In this document: piece after piece, positions 31,360-60,856 of the stretch
Layout of the letters: every line of letters begins with the position of its first letter
Numbering within the stretch: position 1 is the first letter of the stretch
Assembly: GCA_021790385.1 (NCBI GenBank)
Contig: JAJYDW010000002.1
Coordinates: 71,551-135,550 of the forward strand
Direction: 5' to 3'
Length of the DNA stretch: 64,000 nucleotides
DNA from: Planctomycetota bacterium
Lineage (GTDB): Bacteria > Planctomycetota > Phycisphaerae > WQYP01
Translations under genes and position numbers: made by a program
Notes under the pieces: generated by a model
The model's input: the letters and a program-made list of their open reading frames with translations, nothing else
Told to the model about the DNA's origin: nothing
Database searches by the model: none

Positions 31360-31534
31360 GGCACACTCCACCAAAATCTACAATTAATTATAGCAACGTC
31401 CATCGTCAAAACCTAATGCCACCAACCCCATCCCGCCAACTCCACTGCTGGACCGAACCCTAAAATCTCCAATTTCAAATCCGTCCCCATATCCACCTGC
31501 TGAACACTGCCCACTGGACCCTCGTCCCAAACGA

Positions 31535-31557
31535 GCCGCTGGGGTTATCCCAGCGGC
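31535..31557. repeat. Perfect 9-bp stem-loop
   Basis: GCCGCTGGG (31535-31543), a 5-base loop GTTAT, then CCCAGCGGC (31549-31557) form a perfect hairpin. It is preceded by a smaller one, CTCGT-CCCAA-ACGAG (31521-31535). There is no following T run, so it is not a typical terminator. Confidence 0.6.
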
Positions 31558-32000
31558 CATCCTCATCATCCAAATCAAAATAATGCTTTTTCGGGTTACA
31601 CCATAATTGCTTGTTACCAAAAGTTCCTTGATCTCAACTGTTCCACTGTTCCCTCTTCTAAGTAAGTCAAGTGTGCGAAAACAGGGGGATGCTATGGCCA
31701 CTATCCAAGCAGCGAGACGCCGTTTCCACCTTGAGGTTCCATCCGCCGCAACCCACTGGCCATACTATCTTCCGAAACCATGATCATAATCCCATGTTAC
31801 CCCACCCCCGCCCAACCGCAAACCAAATCCACTCTCACCAATTCCGCCAATCCCTATGAAATTAAGAAATTTTCAAATCTCCTATCTGAAATCCAAGGTC
31901 TGCAATTTCATATTCGTTTATTCCCCGCCATCCTCCGCATTTTTCTGCGTGCTCCGCGGTGCAAAGCTCTCTTCCCTCTCCGCAGGCATCAAATCGCGGC

Positions 32001-32052
32001 CCCGCAGCCAAAAGGACCAGCCGGCATGTGTGAATTATTTTTGCTTGGCACC
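32001..32052 (+). repeat. Dispersed intergenic repeat, right half-copy
   Basis: This segment matches 60610-60662 at about 45 of 53 aligned positions with one gap. The shared core is CCGCAGCCAAAAG, then ACCAG, then GTGTGAA and TTATTTTTG. Only the right half of the element is present; the left half seen near 60.5 kb is missing here. Confidence 0.6.
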
Positions 32053-32081
32053 TTCGGTACCACACAGCGTTGGTGCATCCC

Positions 32082-34788: not shown

Positions 34789-37464
34789 GTGCCCGTATCC
34801 TTGTCCGAACAAATCATCAGCGTGCTCGCTGCCGAAGATGGTGGACCGATGGCGGTCGCGGAGATTTCCCGTCGCCTGCATATTGACGAGAGTAACCGTA
34901 TGGCCTTTCGCGCAGCTCTGGAAGAGCTAATTCGAGTGGGCCGGATAATTCCCCGGGATATTGGCGAGGCCGTGGCCTTCCCGGACGAAAAAGACCAGGT
35001 TGTCGGCATGTTCCACGCAACCAGCCGTGGCTTTGGATTTGTCAGCCCGCTCAAACCCACCGGGCGTGATGATATTTTTATTCCCGCCCAGGACACTTCA
35101 GATGCCCTGGGTGGAGATCTGGTGCTGGTTAAAATTGTTGTGGCGGACAAACGCAATGCCCGCGGCAAAAGCGCACCCGGCCGTGTTATCGATATTTTAC
35201 GCCGAGCCAGTACGCGCTGCGTAGGAACCTTGAAAAAACAGGTCAGCAACTGGGTGGTAGTACCGGACGGCGCGGTGTTCAAAGCCCCCATCCAGGTGCA
35301 GGACGCAGGAGCCAAAAATGCCTCCAACGGCGACAAAGTGGTGGTCGAACTGGTGCGTTTTGCCCGCGGAGCTGAACCGGCCCAGGGAGTGATTACCGAA
35401 GTGCTCGGCCCCCATGGCGAGCCGGAGGTGGAATTAGCCTCAGTCATGCGACAATTTGATTTACCGCAGGAATATCCCGCGGAAGCTCTGGAGCAGGCCC
35501 GTCGGGCGGCGACGGAATTTGATCCTGGCTCGATCACGGGACGCGAAGACCTTTCCCAGCAGACCATCGTTACCATCGACCCCGATGACGCCCGCGATTT
35601 TGATGATGCCATCAGCCTGCGTGTGCTGACCTCGTCCGAGGCCGACCAAACCCACCAGCAGATCGAAGCATTGCTCGGACCGGACGAACTGGATCGGCCT
35701 GGCCCCGCAGCCTATGAACTCGGCGTGCATATCGCCGATGTTGCCCATTTTGTGCCGGTTGAATCCGCCCTGGATATTGAAGCCCGCCAGCGCGGCAACA
35801 GCATCTATTTTCCGAGATTCGTTATCCCCATGCTGCCGGAGCTGCTTTCCAATGGTGTTTGTTCGCTCCAGCAGGATCAACCCCGACTTACCAAAAGTGC
35901 CTTTATCCGCTACGACGAACGCGGCCGGGTGATTTCAACGCGATTTGCCAATACCATCATCCGATCGCGAAAACGCCTCACTTACCAGCAGGCGCAGGCT
36001 ATTATTGACGACGCCCGCGGTCAGGCACAGCCTTATTCCAAGGGCCTTTTGGATTCCCCGCCCAACCCGTACGTCCCGGATGTGGAACCACCAGTACGCC
36101 AACTGCTTGCCGACATGGATCGCTTGGCCCGCGCCATCCAAACCCGCCGGCTGCGACAAGGGATGATCGTTCTCGATTTGCCCGAAGTCGAACTGGTCAT
36201 GGATGAAACCGGGCGGGTCATTGATGCCCGTCCGGAAGATGATGCCTTCACCCATAAGATTATTGAAATGTTTATGGTGGAAGCCAACGAAGCCGTCGCC
36301 CGATTTCTAACCCGGCGCGGCCTGACAGTGCTGCGGCGAATTCATCCCGAACCCGATAGTGAATCCGCCGAACAGGTACGGCAATTCGTGGCGATAACAG
36401 GTCGACGCCTGCCCCGCGAACTGGACCGCAGCGTCATTCAAGGCCTGTTGGACAGTGTGCGTGGCACGCCCATTGCATATGCCGTGCATTTATCTGTCCT
36501 TAAAACCTTCAGCACCGCCGAATACTCCCCTCTGCCCATGGGCCATTACGCTTTGGCCAGCGAGAATTACGCGCATTTCACCTCCCCGATTCGCCGCTAT
36601 GCCGATTTAGTCATTCACCGCTGCCTGGATTCCATTATCGGTCAAGCAGCACCAACCCAAGGCAGACGGACACCCGCGATGGAAAAACGCAGTTCGCCGC
36701 GACGTAAAGCCGCCATGGCTGGCCAGCATACCGTGCCACCCCAGGATAGCCGCACACCGCAAAAAGTCACCGGACCAGCCGGCACTGGTAATTTCAACTT
36801 GCTCATGCCGTTGAGTCTTGGCAATGTACCCGATGAAAAAACACTCCTGCGATTGTCACGACATCTCTCGTTTACCGAGCGCCGGGCGCAAAATGCCGAA
36901 CGAGAACTGCGCGCAGTCAAGGTACTAAGCCTGCTCTCTGAACATATTGGCGATGTGATTGATGGCGTGGTGACGGGTGTTAACAATTTCGGCATTTTTA
37001 TTCAGTCCACCAGGTTTCTGGTGGAAGGACTTATCCGCATCAGCGATCTGCCCCCCGATTACTGGTTCTTCGACGAACGCACCGCATCGCTGCGCGGCCA
37101 ACGGACCGGACGGCGCATTTCGCTCGGTGATCCGGTGCGTGTGCAAATCGTGGCGGTTCATTTGTCCACCAGGCAAATGGACCTGCTTCTATTGGAGCTT
37201 GGTTCAAGTGCCGGCGGCAAAGCCACATTGCGGCAGGTGCAGCCGCGGCAACAGCCTAAAGCTCTGCATCGCCGCGGACCGCGCGAAGACCGCAACAAGG
37301 ATTCCCGCTCGCGGCAGCATGCCTATACTGACAGGAGAGACGGCTCGGCTCGGACCGGGGGTAGACATACCGGTCAAAGGCCGGGGCTGCTTACCCGCGA
37401 ATCCGGGAAACACGGATATAAGCCGGCTCGCGAGAACCGAAATAGGCGGCGATCCCGTCGTTAG
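34789..37464 (+). CDS. rnr: Ribonuclease R
   Basis: RNase R degrades structured RNA 3' to 5'. The 891-residue protein has an N-terminal winged-helix segment, cold-shock domains with GFGFVSP (about 81-87), the RNB catalytic domain with IDPDDARDFDDAI (263-275, the Mg-binding aspartates), HFTSPIRRYADLVIHR, and a C-terminal S1 domain (GVVTGVNNFGIFIQ). Two features stand out. A basic Pro/Arg/Lys-rich linker of about 45 residues (620-664) is inserted between the RNB and S1 regions, and an arginine-rich tail of about 70 residues ends RRRSRR. The start is GTG with AGGAG five bases before it. The basic tail probably helps RNA or ribosome binding. Confidence 0.94.
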   Translation: MPVSLSEQIISVLAAEDGGPMAVAEISRRLHIDESNRMAFRAALEELIRVGRIIPRDIGEAVAFPDEKDQVVGMFHATSRGFGFVSPLKPTGRDDIFIPAQDTSDALGGDLVLVKIVVADKRNARGKSAPGRVIDILRRASTRCVGTLKKQVSNWVVVPDGAVFKAPIQVQDAGAKNASNGDKVVVELVRFARGAEPAQGVITEVLGPHGEPEVELASVMRQFDLPQEYPAEALEQARRAATEFDPGSITGREDLSQQTIVTIDPDDARDFDDAISLRVLTSSEADQTHQQIEALLGPDELDRPGPAAYELGVHIADVAHFVPVESALDIEARQRGNSIYFPRFVIPMLPELLSNGVCSLQQDQPRLTKSAFIRYDERGRVISTRFANTIIRSRKRLTYQQAQAIIDDARGQAQPYSKGLLDSPPNPYVPDVEPPVRQLLADMDRLARAIQTRRLRQGMIVLDLPEVELVMDETGRVIDARPEDDAFTHKIIEMFMVEANEAVARFLTRRGLTVLRRIHPEPDSESAEQVRQFVAITGRRLPRELDRSVIQGLLDSVRGTPIAYAVHLSVLKTFSTAEYSPLPMGHYALASENYAHFTSPIRRYADLVIHRCLDSIIGQAAPTQGRRTPAMEKRSSPRRKAAMAGQHTVPPQDSRTPQKVTGPAGTGNFNLLMPLSLGNVPDEKTLLRLSRHLSFTERRAQNAERELRAVKVLSLLSEHIGDVIDGVVTGVNNFGIFIQSTRFLVEGLIRISDLPPDYWFFDERTASLRGQRTGRRISLGDPVRVQIVAVHLSTRQMDLLLLELGSSAGGKATLRQVQPRQQPKALHRRGPREDRNKDSRSRQHAYTDRRDGSARTGGRHTGQRPGLLTRESGKHGYKPARENRNRRRSRR

Positions 37465-37487
37465 TCATTCCTTTACACGCGTGCGCT

Positions 37488-37802
37488 ATGTATTCTCAAT
37501 ACCCAGGCAGACAAGTACTTTTTGGCGGCCAGCGTGCGCGGTGGCTGATGGCTCTAGCACTATTGACGGGCACGGTGCTCGCTCTTTCGAGCCTGGATGG
37601 ATGCGAAACCAGGGTGATTAAAGACAACAGCGTCGACGCCCGGCTCAGTCGCAGCATGCCCGCGGGAAATCTGCAAAATGGCCGCGGCGAGACCTATCAG
37701 GCACAGCATGTCAACGGCCAATCTGTGCCCCCGGGCTATATCCCCAATGCGGCTGCGCCAGGTAACTGGACCCACGGCTTTGCCCCACCCACCGGACCGT
37801 AA
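37488..37802 (+). CDS. Small exported protein, possible lipoprotein
   Basis: No family is recognised. The 104-residue product has a basic N-terminus (residues 1-18), a hydrophobic stretch WLMALALLTGTVLALSSL, and then DGCETR. The Cys follows Asp-Gly, so the lipobox is imperfect but possible; otherwise it is a simple signal peptide. The mature part is short, polar and rich in Asn, Gly and Pro, ending GFAPPTGP, and is probably unstructured. It begins 23 bases after the RNase R stop. A T run follows its stop at 37809-37816 without a clear hairpin. It is kept as a probable gene because of its signal-like N-terminus. Confidence 0.5.
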   Translation: MYSQYPGRQVLFGGQRARWLMALALLTGTVLALSSLDGCETRVIKDNSVDARLSRSMPAGNLQNGRGETYQAQHVNGQSVPPGYIPNAAAPGNWTHGFAPPTGP

Positions 37803-37849
37803 TCGCCTGTTTTTTATCTTGTGGACTGTCAGGAAATAAAGTGTATTAC

Positions 37850-37907
37850 TACGGCGCAGACATTTTGCCGGCCGGCGAGGCGTGAGCGACACGCATACCC
37901 CACCAAT
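37850..37907 (+). repeat. Dispersed intergenic repeat, left half-copy
   Basis: Ungapped alignment with 60526-60583 gives 48 identical positions out of 58. The shared core is TACGGCGCAG, then TTTTG, then GGCGTGAGCGAC and CGCATACCC, ending CCAAT. Only the left half of the element is present. Confidence 0.65.
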
Positions 37908-37938
37908 CGCCGCCGACCGCTGCCGCCGGCAATGACGA

Positions 37939-38367
37939 TCAGAGTTCTTCCGGATCAATGCGAATATTGGTTTCGCCGGCGGCTTTTTTTTCCTGATATT
38001 TTTTCAGCCAGGTCTGAAAACTTTTGCCCGCTGCCGCGTCTCGGCCTGAAAATTCCAGCCTGGTAATAGCGCTGTAAGCAACCCGAACTTTCTCCGTGCT
38101 GCCCTTCGGATACAGCCGCACGTAGCTATTTTCCAGACCACGACCATGGCCACCGCGATCAAAGATGTAGCCTTCAATTATTTGCCCCTGGCGGGTATGA
38201 ATGGTCACATCCCCACGATAACTAAACGCCATTTCCAGCGCCTCGACGATATCTTCCGGCGAAGCCAACGGAGGAATCCAGCCTTCCAGATTCTCAGGCT
38301 CCTTCCGCGCGGTAACATGATCAGCAGTGTCCGACAGCGAAGCGTGGGATTTTGTTTCTTGCGGCAA
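37939..38367 (-). CDS. Protein of unknown function with an LSm/SH3-like core, downstream of hpnH
   Basis: No named family is recognised. The 142-residue product has a polar N-terminal part (1-45), then a predicted beta-barrel core (about 50-110) with TRQGQIIEGYIFDR and VRVAYSAITRLEFSGRD. A helical basic tail contains TWLKKYQEKKAAG. The G-x2-I-x-G-x-I pattern resembles the one in the secreted protein at 26.9-27.7 kb. The start is TTG with GGAG eight bases upstream. It lies 47 bases after hpnH on the same strand and is probably cotranscribed, so a link to hopanoid or radical SAM function is possible. No signal peptide is seen. Confidence 0.65.
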   Translation of the reverse strand: MPQETKSHASLSDTADHVTARKEPENLEGWIPPLASPEDIVEALEMAFSYRGDVTIHTRQGQIIEGYIFDRGGHGRGLENSYVRLYPKGSTEKVRVAYSAITRLEFSGRDAAAGKSFQTWLKKYQEKKAAGETNIRIDPEEL

Positions 38368-38414
38368 AAGAGCATCTCCAATGGTCAGCTTGAAAACTGC
38401 GGCGGCTGTTTCGT

Positions 38415-39572
38415 TTACGATTGAGGCGAGGACATATCTTGTGCATCGGCTGTTTCACGCGGGACGCGCCGCGTGGCTGTAACCTTTAATTCCACAAGCC
38501 TTCCCGGCCGGGACTCCACCGGCTGCTCCAATGCTTCCAGGGCTGAGGCGTTGGCATAAGTCCCGCCAAAAACGGTGGCTCGCACCGTCGCCAGAAAGCC
38601 CCGCAATGAACCAAAGGTATCGTCCACCGCACTGGCCTCGTAGCCGCTGTGAACCATGCAGTTGGCGCACTTTGAATTACCCGATTCTGCACCATACTTT
38701 TCCCATTGCGTCTCGGACAGCAGTTCGGAAAACGTATCGGCATATCCATCTTGCAGCAGGTAGCAGGGCTTTTGCCAGCCAAAGACATTATACGTGGGCA
38801 TTCCCCAGGGCGTGCACACATAGGATCGCCGCCCCATCAGAAACTCCAGAAACAGCGGGCTTTGATTAAACCGCCACTTCTTATTGCGATTGCTCAAAAT
38901 AGTGCCGAAGAGCGTGCGGGTTTTGGCCCGACCCAAAAAGTGTTCCTGGTCGGGGGCTTTTTCGTAACTGTAGCCCGGCGACAGCATCATCCCTTCCACC
39001 CCGACCTCCATCATCTGGTCAAAAAATCGGCGCACACTCACCGGATCAGTTCCGTCAAACAGCGTGGTGTTGGTGGTAACACGGAAGCCCCGCTTCACTG
39101 CCTCTTTAATCCCTTCCAGCGCAATGTCAAATCCGCCTTCCCGGCATACCGAAAAATCATGGTGCTCTTTTTCGCCATCCAGATGCACACTAAACGTAAG
39201 ATACTTTGACGGCTTAAAGAGATCAATTTTTTCTTTCAAAAGCAGTGCATTGGTGCACAAATAAATATACTTGCGCCGGGCTACCAAGCCTTCCACAATT
39301 TCCTTGATCTGCGGGTGCAGCAGCGGTTCGCCCCCGGGAATGCTCACCATCGGAGCACCGCATTCCTCCACGGCGGAAAAGCATTGCTCAGGCGTGAGAT
39401 TTTGCTTGAGGATATGGGCAGGATATTGAATTTTTCCACAACCGGCGCAAGCCAGATTGCACCGAAACAGCGGTTCCAGCATCAGCACCAGCGGATAGCG
39501 TTTTTTGCCCTTGAGTTTCTGGGTAAGAACGTATCGGGCTACCGTCCACATCTGCGAAATTGGAACACCCAT
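38415..39572 (-). CDS. hpnH: Adenosyl-hopene transferase HpnH (radical SAM)
   Basis: HpnH adds a 5'-deoxyadenosyl group to diploptene to give adenosylhopane, the first step in making extended C35 hopanoids. The 385-residue protein has the radical SAM cluster motif CNLACAGC near residue 38, the family-specific [24 protein letters not shown], and C-terminal cysteines ([19 protein letters not shown]). These features closely fit HpnH rather than other B12-independent radical SAM proteins. The start ATG follows AAAGG. It is divergent from hpnG by about 300 bases, and an unknown 142-residue protein follows it. Confidence 0.93.
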
Positions 39573-58794: not shown

Positions 58795-60360
58795 TCAGGA
58801 AAGGCCCAGCTCGGCCAGCCCTACCGCCTTGAGCAGGCCCGCGGCTTTGTTGAGCGTTTCTTGATATTCGTTGGCGGGTACAGAATCAGCCACCAGGCCA
58901 CACCCGCTCTGGATAAACACGGTGGTGATCCGGTCGGCCTGGTCTTGATTCGGCGTATCGCTTTTCGGCGGCAGCACCACCATCGTCCGCAGTGCAATGC
59001 AGGTATCCATATTCCCCGAATAATCCATATAGCCTACCGCCCCACCATAAGGGCCGCGACGGCTGGGTTCCAACTGGTCAATGATCTGCATGGCCCGAAT
59101 TTTTGGAGCGCCGCTGACAGTGCCCACCGGCAAGGTGGCACGCAATGCATCGAAACAGGTTTTTCCTGCCGCCAGTTCGCCATTTACGTTGCTGGTAATG
59201 TGCATGACATGACTGTAACGCTCTACGCTCATCACGTCGTCGGTTTTCACGCTTCCGGGTACTGCCACCCTGCCCACATCGTTGCGCCCCAGGTCCACCA
59301 GCATGATGTGTTCCGCACGTTCTTTAGGATCAGCCAGTAATTCTTTTTCCAATGCCGCATCTTCCTCCGCAGTTTGCCCGCGCCGACGTGTGCCCGCCAG
59401 CGGCCGGCTGGTGATCACTCCATTTTGCACCCGACACATTATTTCCGGCGACGACCCCACCAGCGTACATTCCGGTGCCGTCAGATAAAACATGAACGGT
59501 GATGGATTAACCACCCGCAGCGCCCGGTAGATATCAAACGAATGGGCCGGCGTTTTTACCGTGAAACATTGCGAGAGCACCACCTGAAAGATATCCCCCG
59601 CCTTAATAAACTCCTTGGCCGCTTCCACCGCCGTTTCAAAACCAGCCTGGGTAAAATTGCTCTCGGCTTTTGGCCGATGCCCCTGCTTCAAATTGATCAC
59701 TTCCAACTCACCGTGTACAGGCTCTCGAAGGGCCTCCACCATGGCATTGATACGCGCGGCGGCATCCTGATAAAGTTGATCATGTGGCCGGCCGTCAATA
59801 TGGGCATCCGCCACCACCAATATGGTTTTTTGAACATGATCAAAAATCACCAGATCGTCATACAAGCCGAAGATAACATCCGGCAGATGCCGCAAGTCCG
59901 GAGGAGGCGATGCCAATTTTTCCGGCTCCAGGTACCGCACCGTGTCATATCCCGCATAGCCCACCGCCCCACCTGAAAATGCCGGCAATTCCGGCAGTCG
60001 CACCGCGGTTATACCGGACACAAGGGCCTGTAATTCATGCAGTGGATCTGCGGAGGTAAAGGTCTTATCCTTCTGTTCCCGCGACTTGGGAAACGACAAC
60101 GTAACCCGGTGACCGAAGGCCTTAATCACCGTCCGAGGACCAGCACCCAGAAACGAATACCGTGCGATACGCTCACCCCCTACCACCGATTCGAGCAGAA
60201 AGGAATAGGGAGATCGCTTGGCAAGACGTTCGTAAGCAGTCACCGGTGTGAGATGATCGCCCAGGAGAGTTACAAACACCGGAACAGCAACCCCCGGCTT
60301 GGCCAAGGCGCAAAATTGCTCAAAGGAAAGTGTTGGGGTTATGCTATTTTTCGTCGGCAA
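58795..60360 (-). CDS. trpE: Anthranilate synthase component I
   Basis: TrpE makes anthranilate from chorismate with the glutamine amidotransferase TrpG. The 521-residue protein has the tryptophan-sensing LLES motif near residue 55, PLAGTRRRG, DLGRNDVGRVA, the VNGELAAGKTCFDALRATLP segment, and TVSGAPKIRAMQIID. The catalytic region is complete. The start is TTG at 60360 with AGGAG six bases upstream. No trpG or other trp gene is adjacent; leuS follows after 25 bases, an unusual pairing. No leader peptide rich in Trp codons is seen upstream. PabB is the alternative, but the length and LLES motif favour TrpE. Confidence 0.92.
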   Translation of the reverse strand: MPTKNSITPTLSFEQFCALAKPGVAVPVFVTLLGDHLTPVTAYERLAKRSPYSFLLESVVGGERIARYSFLGAGPRTVIKAFGHRVTLSFPKSREQKDKTFTSADPLHELQALVSGITAVRLPELPAFSGGAVGYAGYDTVRYLEPEKLASPPPDLRHLPDVIFGLYDDLVIFDHVQKTILVVADAHIDGRPHDQLYQDAAARINAMVEALREPVHGELEVINLKQGHRPKAESNFTQAGFETAVEAAKEFIKAGDIFQVVLSQCFTVKTPAHSFDIYRALRVVNPSPFMFYLTAPECTLVGSSPEIMCRVQNGVITSRPLAGTRRRGQTAEEDAALEKELLADPKERAEHIMLVDLGRNDVGRVAVPGSVKTDDVMSVERYSHVMHITSNVNGELAAGKTCFDALRATLPVGTVSGAPKIRAMQIIDQLEPSRRGPYGGAVGYMDYSGNMDTCIALRTMVVLPPKSDTPNQDQADRITTVFIQSGCGLVADSVPANEYQETLNKAAGLLKAVGLAELGLS

Positions 60361-60856
60361 ACAACGCTCCTGTCGAAGTTCAACGGTTTAATTTTAACCG
60401 CCATCGTCCAAACGTTGTAGTCCGCGATTAACGTGAGTTCCCGCGGAAGCGGACCCGGCAGCCGGGCCACGGCGTTTGCCCGGTGTTTGCCGGGTATGGG
60501 GCCGCACAAAAATAAATTCATGTTTTACGGCGCAGGAGTTTTGGCCGCCGGCATGGCGTGAGCGACGCGCATACCCTGCCAATGGGTCTGTAAGAAGCGA
60601 CCAGCGACGCCCGCAGCCAAAAGAACCAGTCGGAAAGTGTGAAGTTATTTTTGCGCGGCTCCTAACCTCTCCTGCACCATGCCACCTCACCCACAACGCC
60701 GGTCACCCGGCATGAACCTGGCCGCCGATCTCTCAACTGCTGTCAATTAGCTTACTATTGCCACACTTTTCAATGTATACTTGCGTCTGTCGGACATTGA
60801 GGCTCCGGTGTTGTTCTCAGCGACTGTTCCGACATACCGCCGACACAGGAGTTGGT
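60361..60856. other. Divergent intergenic region between trpE and the sulfatase maturase, with a repeat
   Basis: About 496 bases contain no supported gene. The right part holds the full copy of a dispersed repeat (60526-60662). The left part is GC-rich with a small dyad CCCGG-CAG-CCGGG near 60465 and no Trp-rich leader. TATACT at 60776-60781 could be a -10 for the maturase, but no good -35 pairs with it. Confidence 0.45.
60526..60662 (+). repeat. Dispersed intergenic repeat, full copy
   Basis: The left part (60526-60583) aligns without gaps to 37850-37907 (48 of 58 identical). The right part (60610-60662) aligns to 32001-32052 (about 45 of 53 identical, one gap). The two halves are separated here by 26 bases. 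All three sites are intergenic. The copies have no protein-like coding pattern. Confidence 0.65.

Follow-up and report, generated by a model that had tools for sequence, protein, structure and literature searches.

BOX elements of Streptococcus pneumoniae are modular repeats in which constant ends enclose a variable interior, and the eukaryotic Tourist MITEs of the PIF/Harbinger group combine a 3-bp TTA/TAA duplication with G-rich inverted ends, as does the element described here. For the PIF/Harbinger superfamily as a whole, PMC2213677 gives a 3-bp duplication. The RUP of S. pneumoniae is a MITE of IS630-Spn1 that is short, gene-less, intergenic and present in many copies, with ends resembling those of its presumed helper IS (PMC2229807), and the Correia/NEMIS elements of Neisseria are short inverted-repeat elements of variable internal length, with both filled and empty sites known (PMC2229807). 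Insertion sequences of the ISAzo13 family make 3-bp duplications (PMC10045372).

We analyzed an intergenic repeat in a 64,000-nucleotide stretch (hereafter, the window) of the draft genome (3.6 Mb, 106 contigs) of an uncultured planctomycete. Compared by description, RUP, which is tied to IS630, has TA as its insertion target, whereas our element duplicates TTA or TAA and appears linked to ISAzo13. The Correia/NEMIS elements, also compared by description, differ in having TA-type termini, no known ISAzo13 link, and a different host. BOX multiplies its middle module in tandem, whereas here interiors are replaced. The Tourist transposase is IS5-related, and that type was not found with the element's ends here. 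ISAzo13 insertion sequences (PF07592/NF033519) share with the element inverted ends of the form GG...AAATAA, 3-bp TTA/TAA duplications, and occurrence in the same taxonomic family; unlike the 165-bp element, which encodes no transposase and has no conserved reading frame as judged from the alignment of its copies, they measure ~1.3-1.4 kb and encode a transposase of ~400 aa.

The limits of the repeat, taken from an alignment of all copies, define a unit of 165 bp that starts with GGGGCCGCAC and finishes with GCGCGGCTCC (Table 1). The first-pass annotation had described a modular repeat at 60526-60662, with its two halves occurring separately elsewhere in the window. The repeat is real, but those limits were too narrow, the true left edge lying 28 bp further out. 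Its left-half match (60526-60583 vs 37850-37907) is exactly 48/58, as claimed, and shuffled copies reached at most 34/58 anywhere in the window (mean, 30.9); this half is genuine too, but begins at 37822 and includes the outer end. The right-half match to ~32001-32052 was likewise recovered, with two 1-bp gaps and a local score of 38 over ~60 columns (ungapped, 36/52 vs at most 31/52 in shuffles). The window copy is located between two divergent genes, namely a minus-strand gene (58795-60360) whose product has domains of anthranilate-synthase component I on one side and, on the other, a radical SAM/SPASM protein gene followed by a sulfatase gene with 94% identity to its counterpart on JAJZNX010000174.1 (a Planctomycetota MAG).

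Table 1. Features of the repeat and its partial copies in the window
Feature	Position	Strand	Remarks
Full-length MITE-like element, end type B on both sides	60498..60662	+	Alignment with full copies (this genome and relatives); stretch missing in two congeners
Left terminal inverted repeat GGGGCCGCACAAAAATAA	60498..60515	+	Pairs with 60645-60662; helix 1, compensatory changes in 9/18 pairs
Right terminal inverted repeat, TTATTTTTGCGCGGCTCC on the + strand	60645..60662	-	
Left flank of 3-bp target duplication, TAT	60495..60497	.	2/3 bases agree with right flank TAA
Right flank of 3-bp target duplication, TAA	60663..60665	.	
Inner stem, left arm TTTTGGCCGCCG	60539..60550	+	Helix 3, 12 pairs with alignment columns 117-129
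Inner stem, right arm	60611..60622	-	Helix 3
Conserved apical core with small stem-loop (CATACCC...GGGTCTG)	60562..60598	+	Helices 4 and 5; within query 30-138, where conservation between genera is highest
One-ended copy, left half, end type A	37822..37907	+	Outer end present, no right half
One-ended copy, right half, end type B	32001..32052	+	
Empty target site TTA	37461..37463	.	G004 has a full type-A copy there, TTA on both sides; G002 and G003 empty too

As checks, the annotation had proposed a genome-wide search, a test for compensatory changes and a search for flanking duplications, and all three came out positive. BLAST of this genome returned 46 matches with the window copy as the query and 65 with a type-A consensus, which rules out a lack of additional copies, the result that the annotation had named as refuting. 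Sorted by hand, and therefore approximate, the copies in this genome fall into ~27 that have the standard core between two ends, 9 in which the two ends flank another interior, and ~25 that are one-ended, including both halves listed in Table 1. Most ends in this genome are of type A (GGGGCTGTCAGGAAATAA) or type B (GGGGCCGCGCAAAAATAA), and further types occur in relatives (e.g., GGGGCCGTCAAGAAATAA and GGGACCGGGCAAAAATAA). End types are mostly symmetric within a copy, and a few copies are mixed, with type A on one side and type B on the other. The term "modular" therefore fits in part: two end types on one core, the mixed copies, and the nine copies with another interior agree with it, but the normal unit is the whole 165 bp, and most one-ended copies look truncated or interior-replaced.

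The family is present in 12 of the 41 genomes searched (i.e., 5/5 of the genus, 7/20 of the other family members, and 0/16 outside the family), and the plasmids and phages that we searched contained no copies. In five loci (L010, L011, L012, L013, and L015), the copies have both flanks in common: the element lies within a different repeat, and the two were amplified together. At G014:C40:71313-71350, two element ends lie back to back to form an almost perfect palindrome of 38 bp in total without an interior. Loci L262, L263, L265, and L267-L270 of G011 and G018 carry same-type ends (GGGGCCGTCARGAAATAACCTTTACATTTCGG) around a different interior, and are apparently another MITE family with related ends.

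Among 46 copies with well-preserved ends, the 3-bp flanks are identical in 29 (shuffles: mean, 11.5; maximum, 21), whereas agreement of 4-bp flanks is at chance level. In most cases, TTA or TAA is the triplet duplicated. The duplication of the window copy itself is imperfect (TAT/TAA), and its length was taken from the whole family. The site of this copy is empty in the congener G004 (very likely the genome of JAJZNX010000174.1), in which the flanks are joined (94-95% identity), and the copy is also missing from G002. Since the exact junction in G004 is slightly different (TTTGCCCCCAACC), the window copy alone is no proof of a clean duplication. The reverse case at ~37461, where G004 is filled and this genome is empty, is a cleaner case of mobility. 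We also searched for the joined flanks of 14 other copies of this genome, retaining one copy of the 3-bp flank in each. In G004, a 95%-identical congener, 6 of the 14 sites were continuous (empty; one of these calls is based on a 74%-identical match), 5 were interrupted (filled), and 3 gave no call, and ~10 of the 14 were continuous (empty) in G002.

The repeat is a mobile element. It is short and non-coding, has many interspersed copies, and displays terminal inverted repeats, a duplication of fixed length and insertion polymorphism, the features by which MITEs are recognized. Of the three roles that the annotation had left open, "relic of a mobile element" is the fitting one, although many copies are no relics but complete and recently moved.

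Surviving copies are mostly intergenic or at stop codons. Of the 39 insertion sites with usable flanks, 13 fall on the stop of a frame that is 100 codons or longer (9.4% for random TTA/TAA sites), and 16 lie within open frames of 150 codons or more (79% for random TTA/TAA sites). When sites within the latter frames are set aside, roughly 13/23 are at stop codons vs ~45% at random; the distribution is thus mainly a sign that insertions within genes are avoided or lost.

The left half at 37822-37907 occurs in this genome and in G004 and is missing from G002 and G003; the sequence that follows it is degraded and differs between this genome and G004. It looks like an older insertion whose interior and right end were lost or exchanged. 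The right half at 32001-32052 is also found in G004, where the match runs through it, and homology to G002 restarts at 32054, just beyond its outer end. Elsewhere in this genome, a left-half copy (C97:38707) directly adjoins a transposase gene split over two frames (G000:C97 ~37300-38600, L036), which we take to be ISNCY-like. We considered this gene as the interior of that copy and rejected it; because no right end was found beyond the gene, we regard it as an unrelated insertion. Several interior-replaced copies have a second interior in common (CGTCGTAGCCGGCTGGGTCCCTCCAGCCG ... GCTGAAAGCTGATCGCTGACC), and interior exchange is therefore non-random. We infer that half copies arise from full copies by deletion or interior replacement.

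Upstream of the right half, window positions 31525-31833 include dispersed repeats of other kinds, which match several further places in this genome, and most of the upstream stretch (31434-31805) has no match at the corresponding place in G004. Beside the G004 counterpart of window position 37912, the sequence (G004:C179, L194) is a mosaic of other repeats that includes ~3 copies of a tandem unit of ~50 bp (TTGAGCCATGGATGGCGAAATCCCGATGCGTTAGGG...), absent at the corresponding place here.

The helper was sought through the ends of the element. A scan of viral contigs gave one match to the type-A end and none to type-B ends. In this match (L271, a single fragment), TTA is followed by GGGGCTGTCAGGAAATAA, an exact type-A end over 18 bases, just upstream of the N-terminus of a protein recognized as ISAzo13 transposase (NF033519, E = 1.4e-25). 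The ISAzo13 transposase domain PF07592 is found in 21 of the 28 family genomes. We searched for ISAzo13 ends de novo around intact copies, without using the element sequence, and recovered inverted ends with TTA/TAA duplications at L272 (same genus), L273, L276, and L279; several ISAzo13 loci carry paired ends resembling those of the element. ISAzo13 ends from the same taxonomic family match the element ends at 20-26 of 36 bases, the closest of them still differing at 10-16 positions. As a control, 429 TTA/TAA+G sites in the same ISAzo13 loci gave mostly 9-19/36; at least 20/36 was reached by 28 control positions, about equal in number to the ISAzo13 ends, which the control set includes. Given this match of the ends, the common TTA/TAA duplication, and the 3-bp duplication known from the literature, we class the element as a MITE with ISAzo13-type ends.

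An intact ISAzo13 with the exact ends of the element was not found in this genome, a draft of 106 contigs in which repeats are often lost, and the search there yielded only a weak ISAzo13 remnant. In G014 and G024, many contig ends bear short C-terminal ISAzo13 matches, which suggests that multicopy ISAzo13 collapsed in assembly. Lone ends in relatives were considered as edges of long autonomous copies, but in 20 such regions no transposase was recognized among the listed frames between the ends; in long left-to-right segments on C105 of this genome, considered in the same way, none was recognized among the listed frames either.

Judging from these sequence comparisons, the element is very probably a MITE moved in trans by an ISAzo13 transposase made elsewhere, inserting at TTA/TAA. 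An ISAzo13-family transposase would bind the inverted ends (GGGGCYG...AAATAA), excise or copy the element, and insert it at TTA or TAA with duplication of those 3 bp. The TTA/TAA pattern had at first suggested another helper, namely a transposase of a different kind that makes such duplications, chiefly of the IS5/IS1031 type (the bacterial side of PIF/Harbinger), and such elements can indeed make 3-bp duplications. We consider this quite unlikely, since PF13359 occurs in just 1 of the 28 family genomes, 30 PF01609 loci examined in the genus all lack paired ends like those of the element (several ISAzo13 loci have them), and the ISAzo13 match of the ends argues against it; candidate IS5-type helpers (PF01609, PF13359) were rejected because no transposase was flanked by the element's ends. 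It is more improbable still that the repeat is truly modular, with two independent half-elements assembled into full copies. Although one-ended copies are about as numerous as full ones and mixed A/B copies occur, the insertion polymorphisms between congeners involve whole elements with one 3-bp duplication, and we saw no filled/empty sites for lone half elements with duplications of their own. In addition, the right half is absent near C97:38707, which adjoins an unrelated insertion sequence, and the left half in the window has different, degraded interiors in two species.

The palindromic organization of the element raises a further alternative, i.e., that it spread as a mobile element but that its core is now, or always was, a selected structure such as a small RNA, an mRNA-end hairpin or a protein-binding site. 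Inside the terminal inverted repeats (18 bp, 88% of cells paired, 9 pairs changed on both sides) lies a second stem of the type TTTTGGCCGCC / GGCGGCCAAAA, which encloses the conserved apical part with its small stem-loop. Across 36 diverse copies, 89.3% of the paired cells hold standard pairs vs 84.6% in shuffles, and 18 pairs, in inner and outer stems, are changed on both sides vs 11.7 (0/500 shuffles as high). The covariation score is 0.190 (shuffled, 0.113). No shuffle attained any of these three values, and sliding the partners by 1-3 columns lowers pairing to 38-49%. Because relatedness alone, with no constraint acting, can carry sequences above such shuffles, the covariation supports a conserved palindrome and is not proof of an RNA. 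End recognition alone does not explain the compensatory changes of the inner stem, which count against a pure MITE reading, and a selected structure would also fit a core more conserved than the ends across genera and the one third of usable insertions that fall on stop codons of long open frames. We nevertheless hold it to be unlikely: inverted ends would covary anyway through transposase recognition or arm-to-arm conversion, the copies are recent and vary in presence between congeners, nine copies lack the core yet retain both ends, and avoidance of gene interiors accounts for most of the excess at stop codons. Nor does the element belong to an Rfam family, with no match at the gathering score and one sub-threshold match (E = 0.24) mostly over the flank, and a tRNA search found none.

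In the literature that we searched, which leaves out most subscription journals, we found no description of ISAzo13-derived MITEs, and ISAzo13 and MITEs were named together there only in unrelated contexts. The element seems to be a new family among the known bacterial MITEs, and such elements seem to be undescribed in this group. With it, the group gains a MITE family that has many copies and was active recently; its likely parent family is ISAzo13, and its 3-bp target is defined. In these genomes, the element accounts for part of the repeat-rich intergenic DNA, and several copies near contig ends make it a possible source of assembly breaks. Of particular interest is the conserved core, which is seen with several end types. 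There is a small chance that one palindromic core, selected for itself and maintaining its inner stem through compensatory changes, is carried by several sets of ISAzo13-type ends (A, B, and others); if so, end-swapping would allow a switch between ISAzo13 transposases. A common core with exchangeable ends offers a testable case of a non-autonomous element switching its helper.
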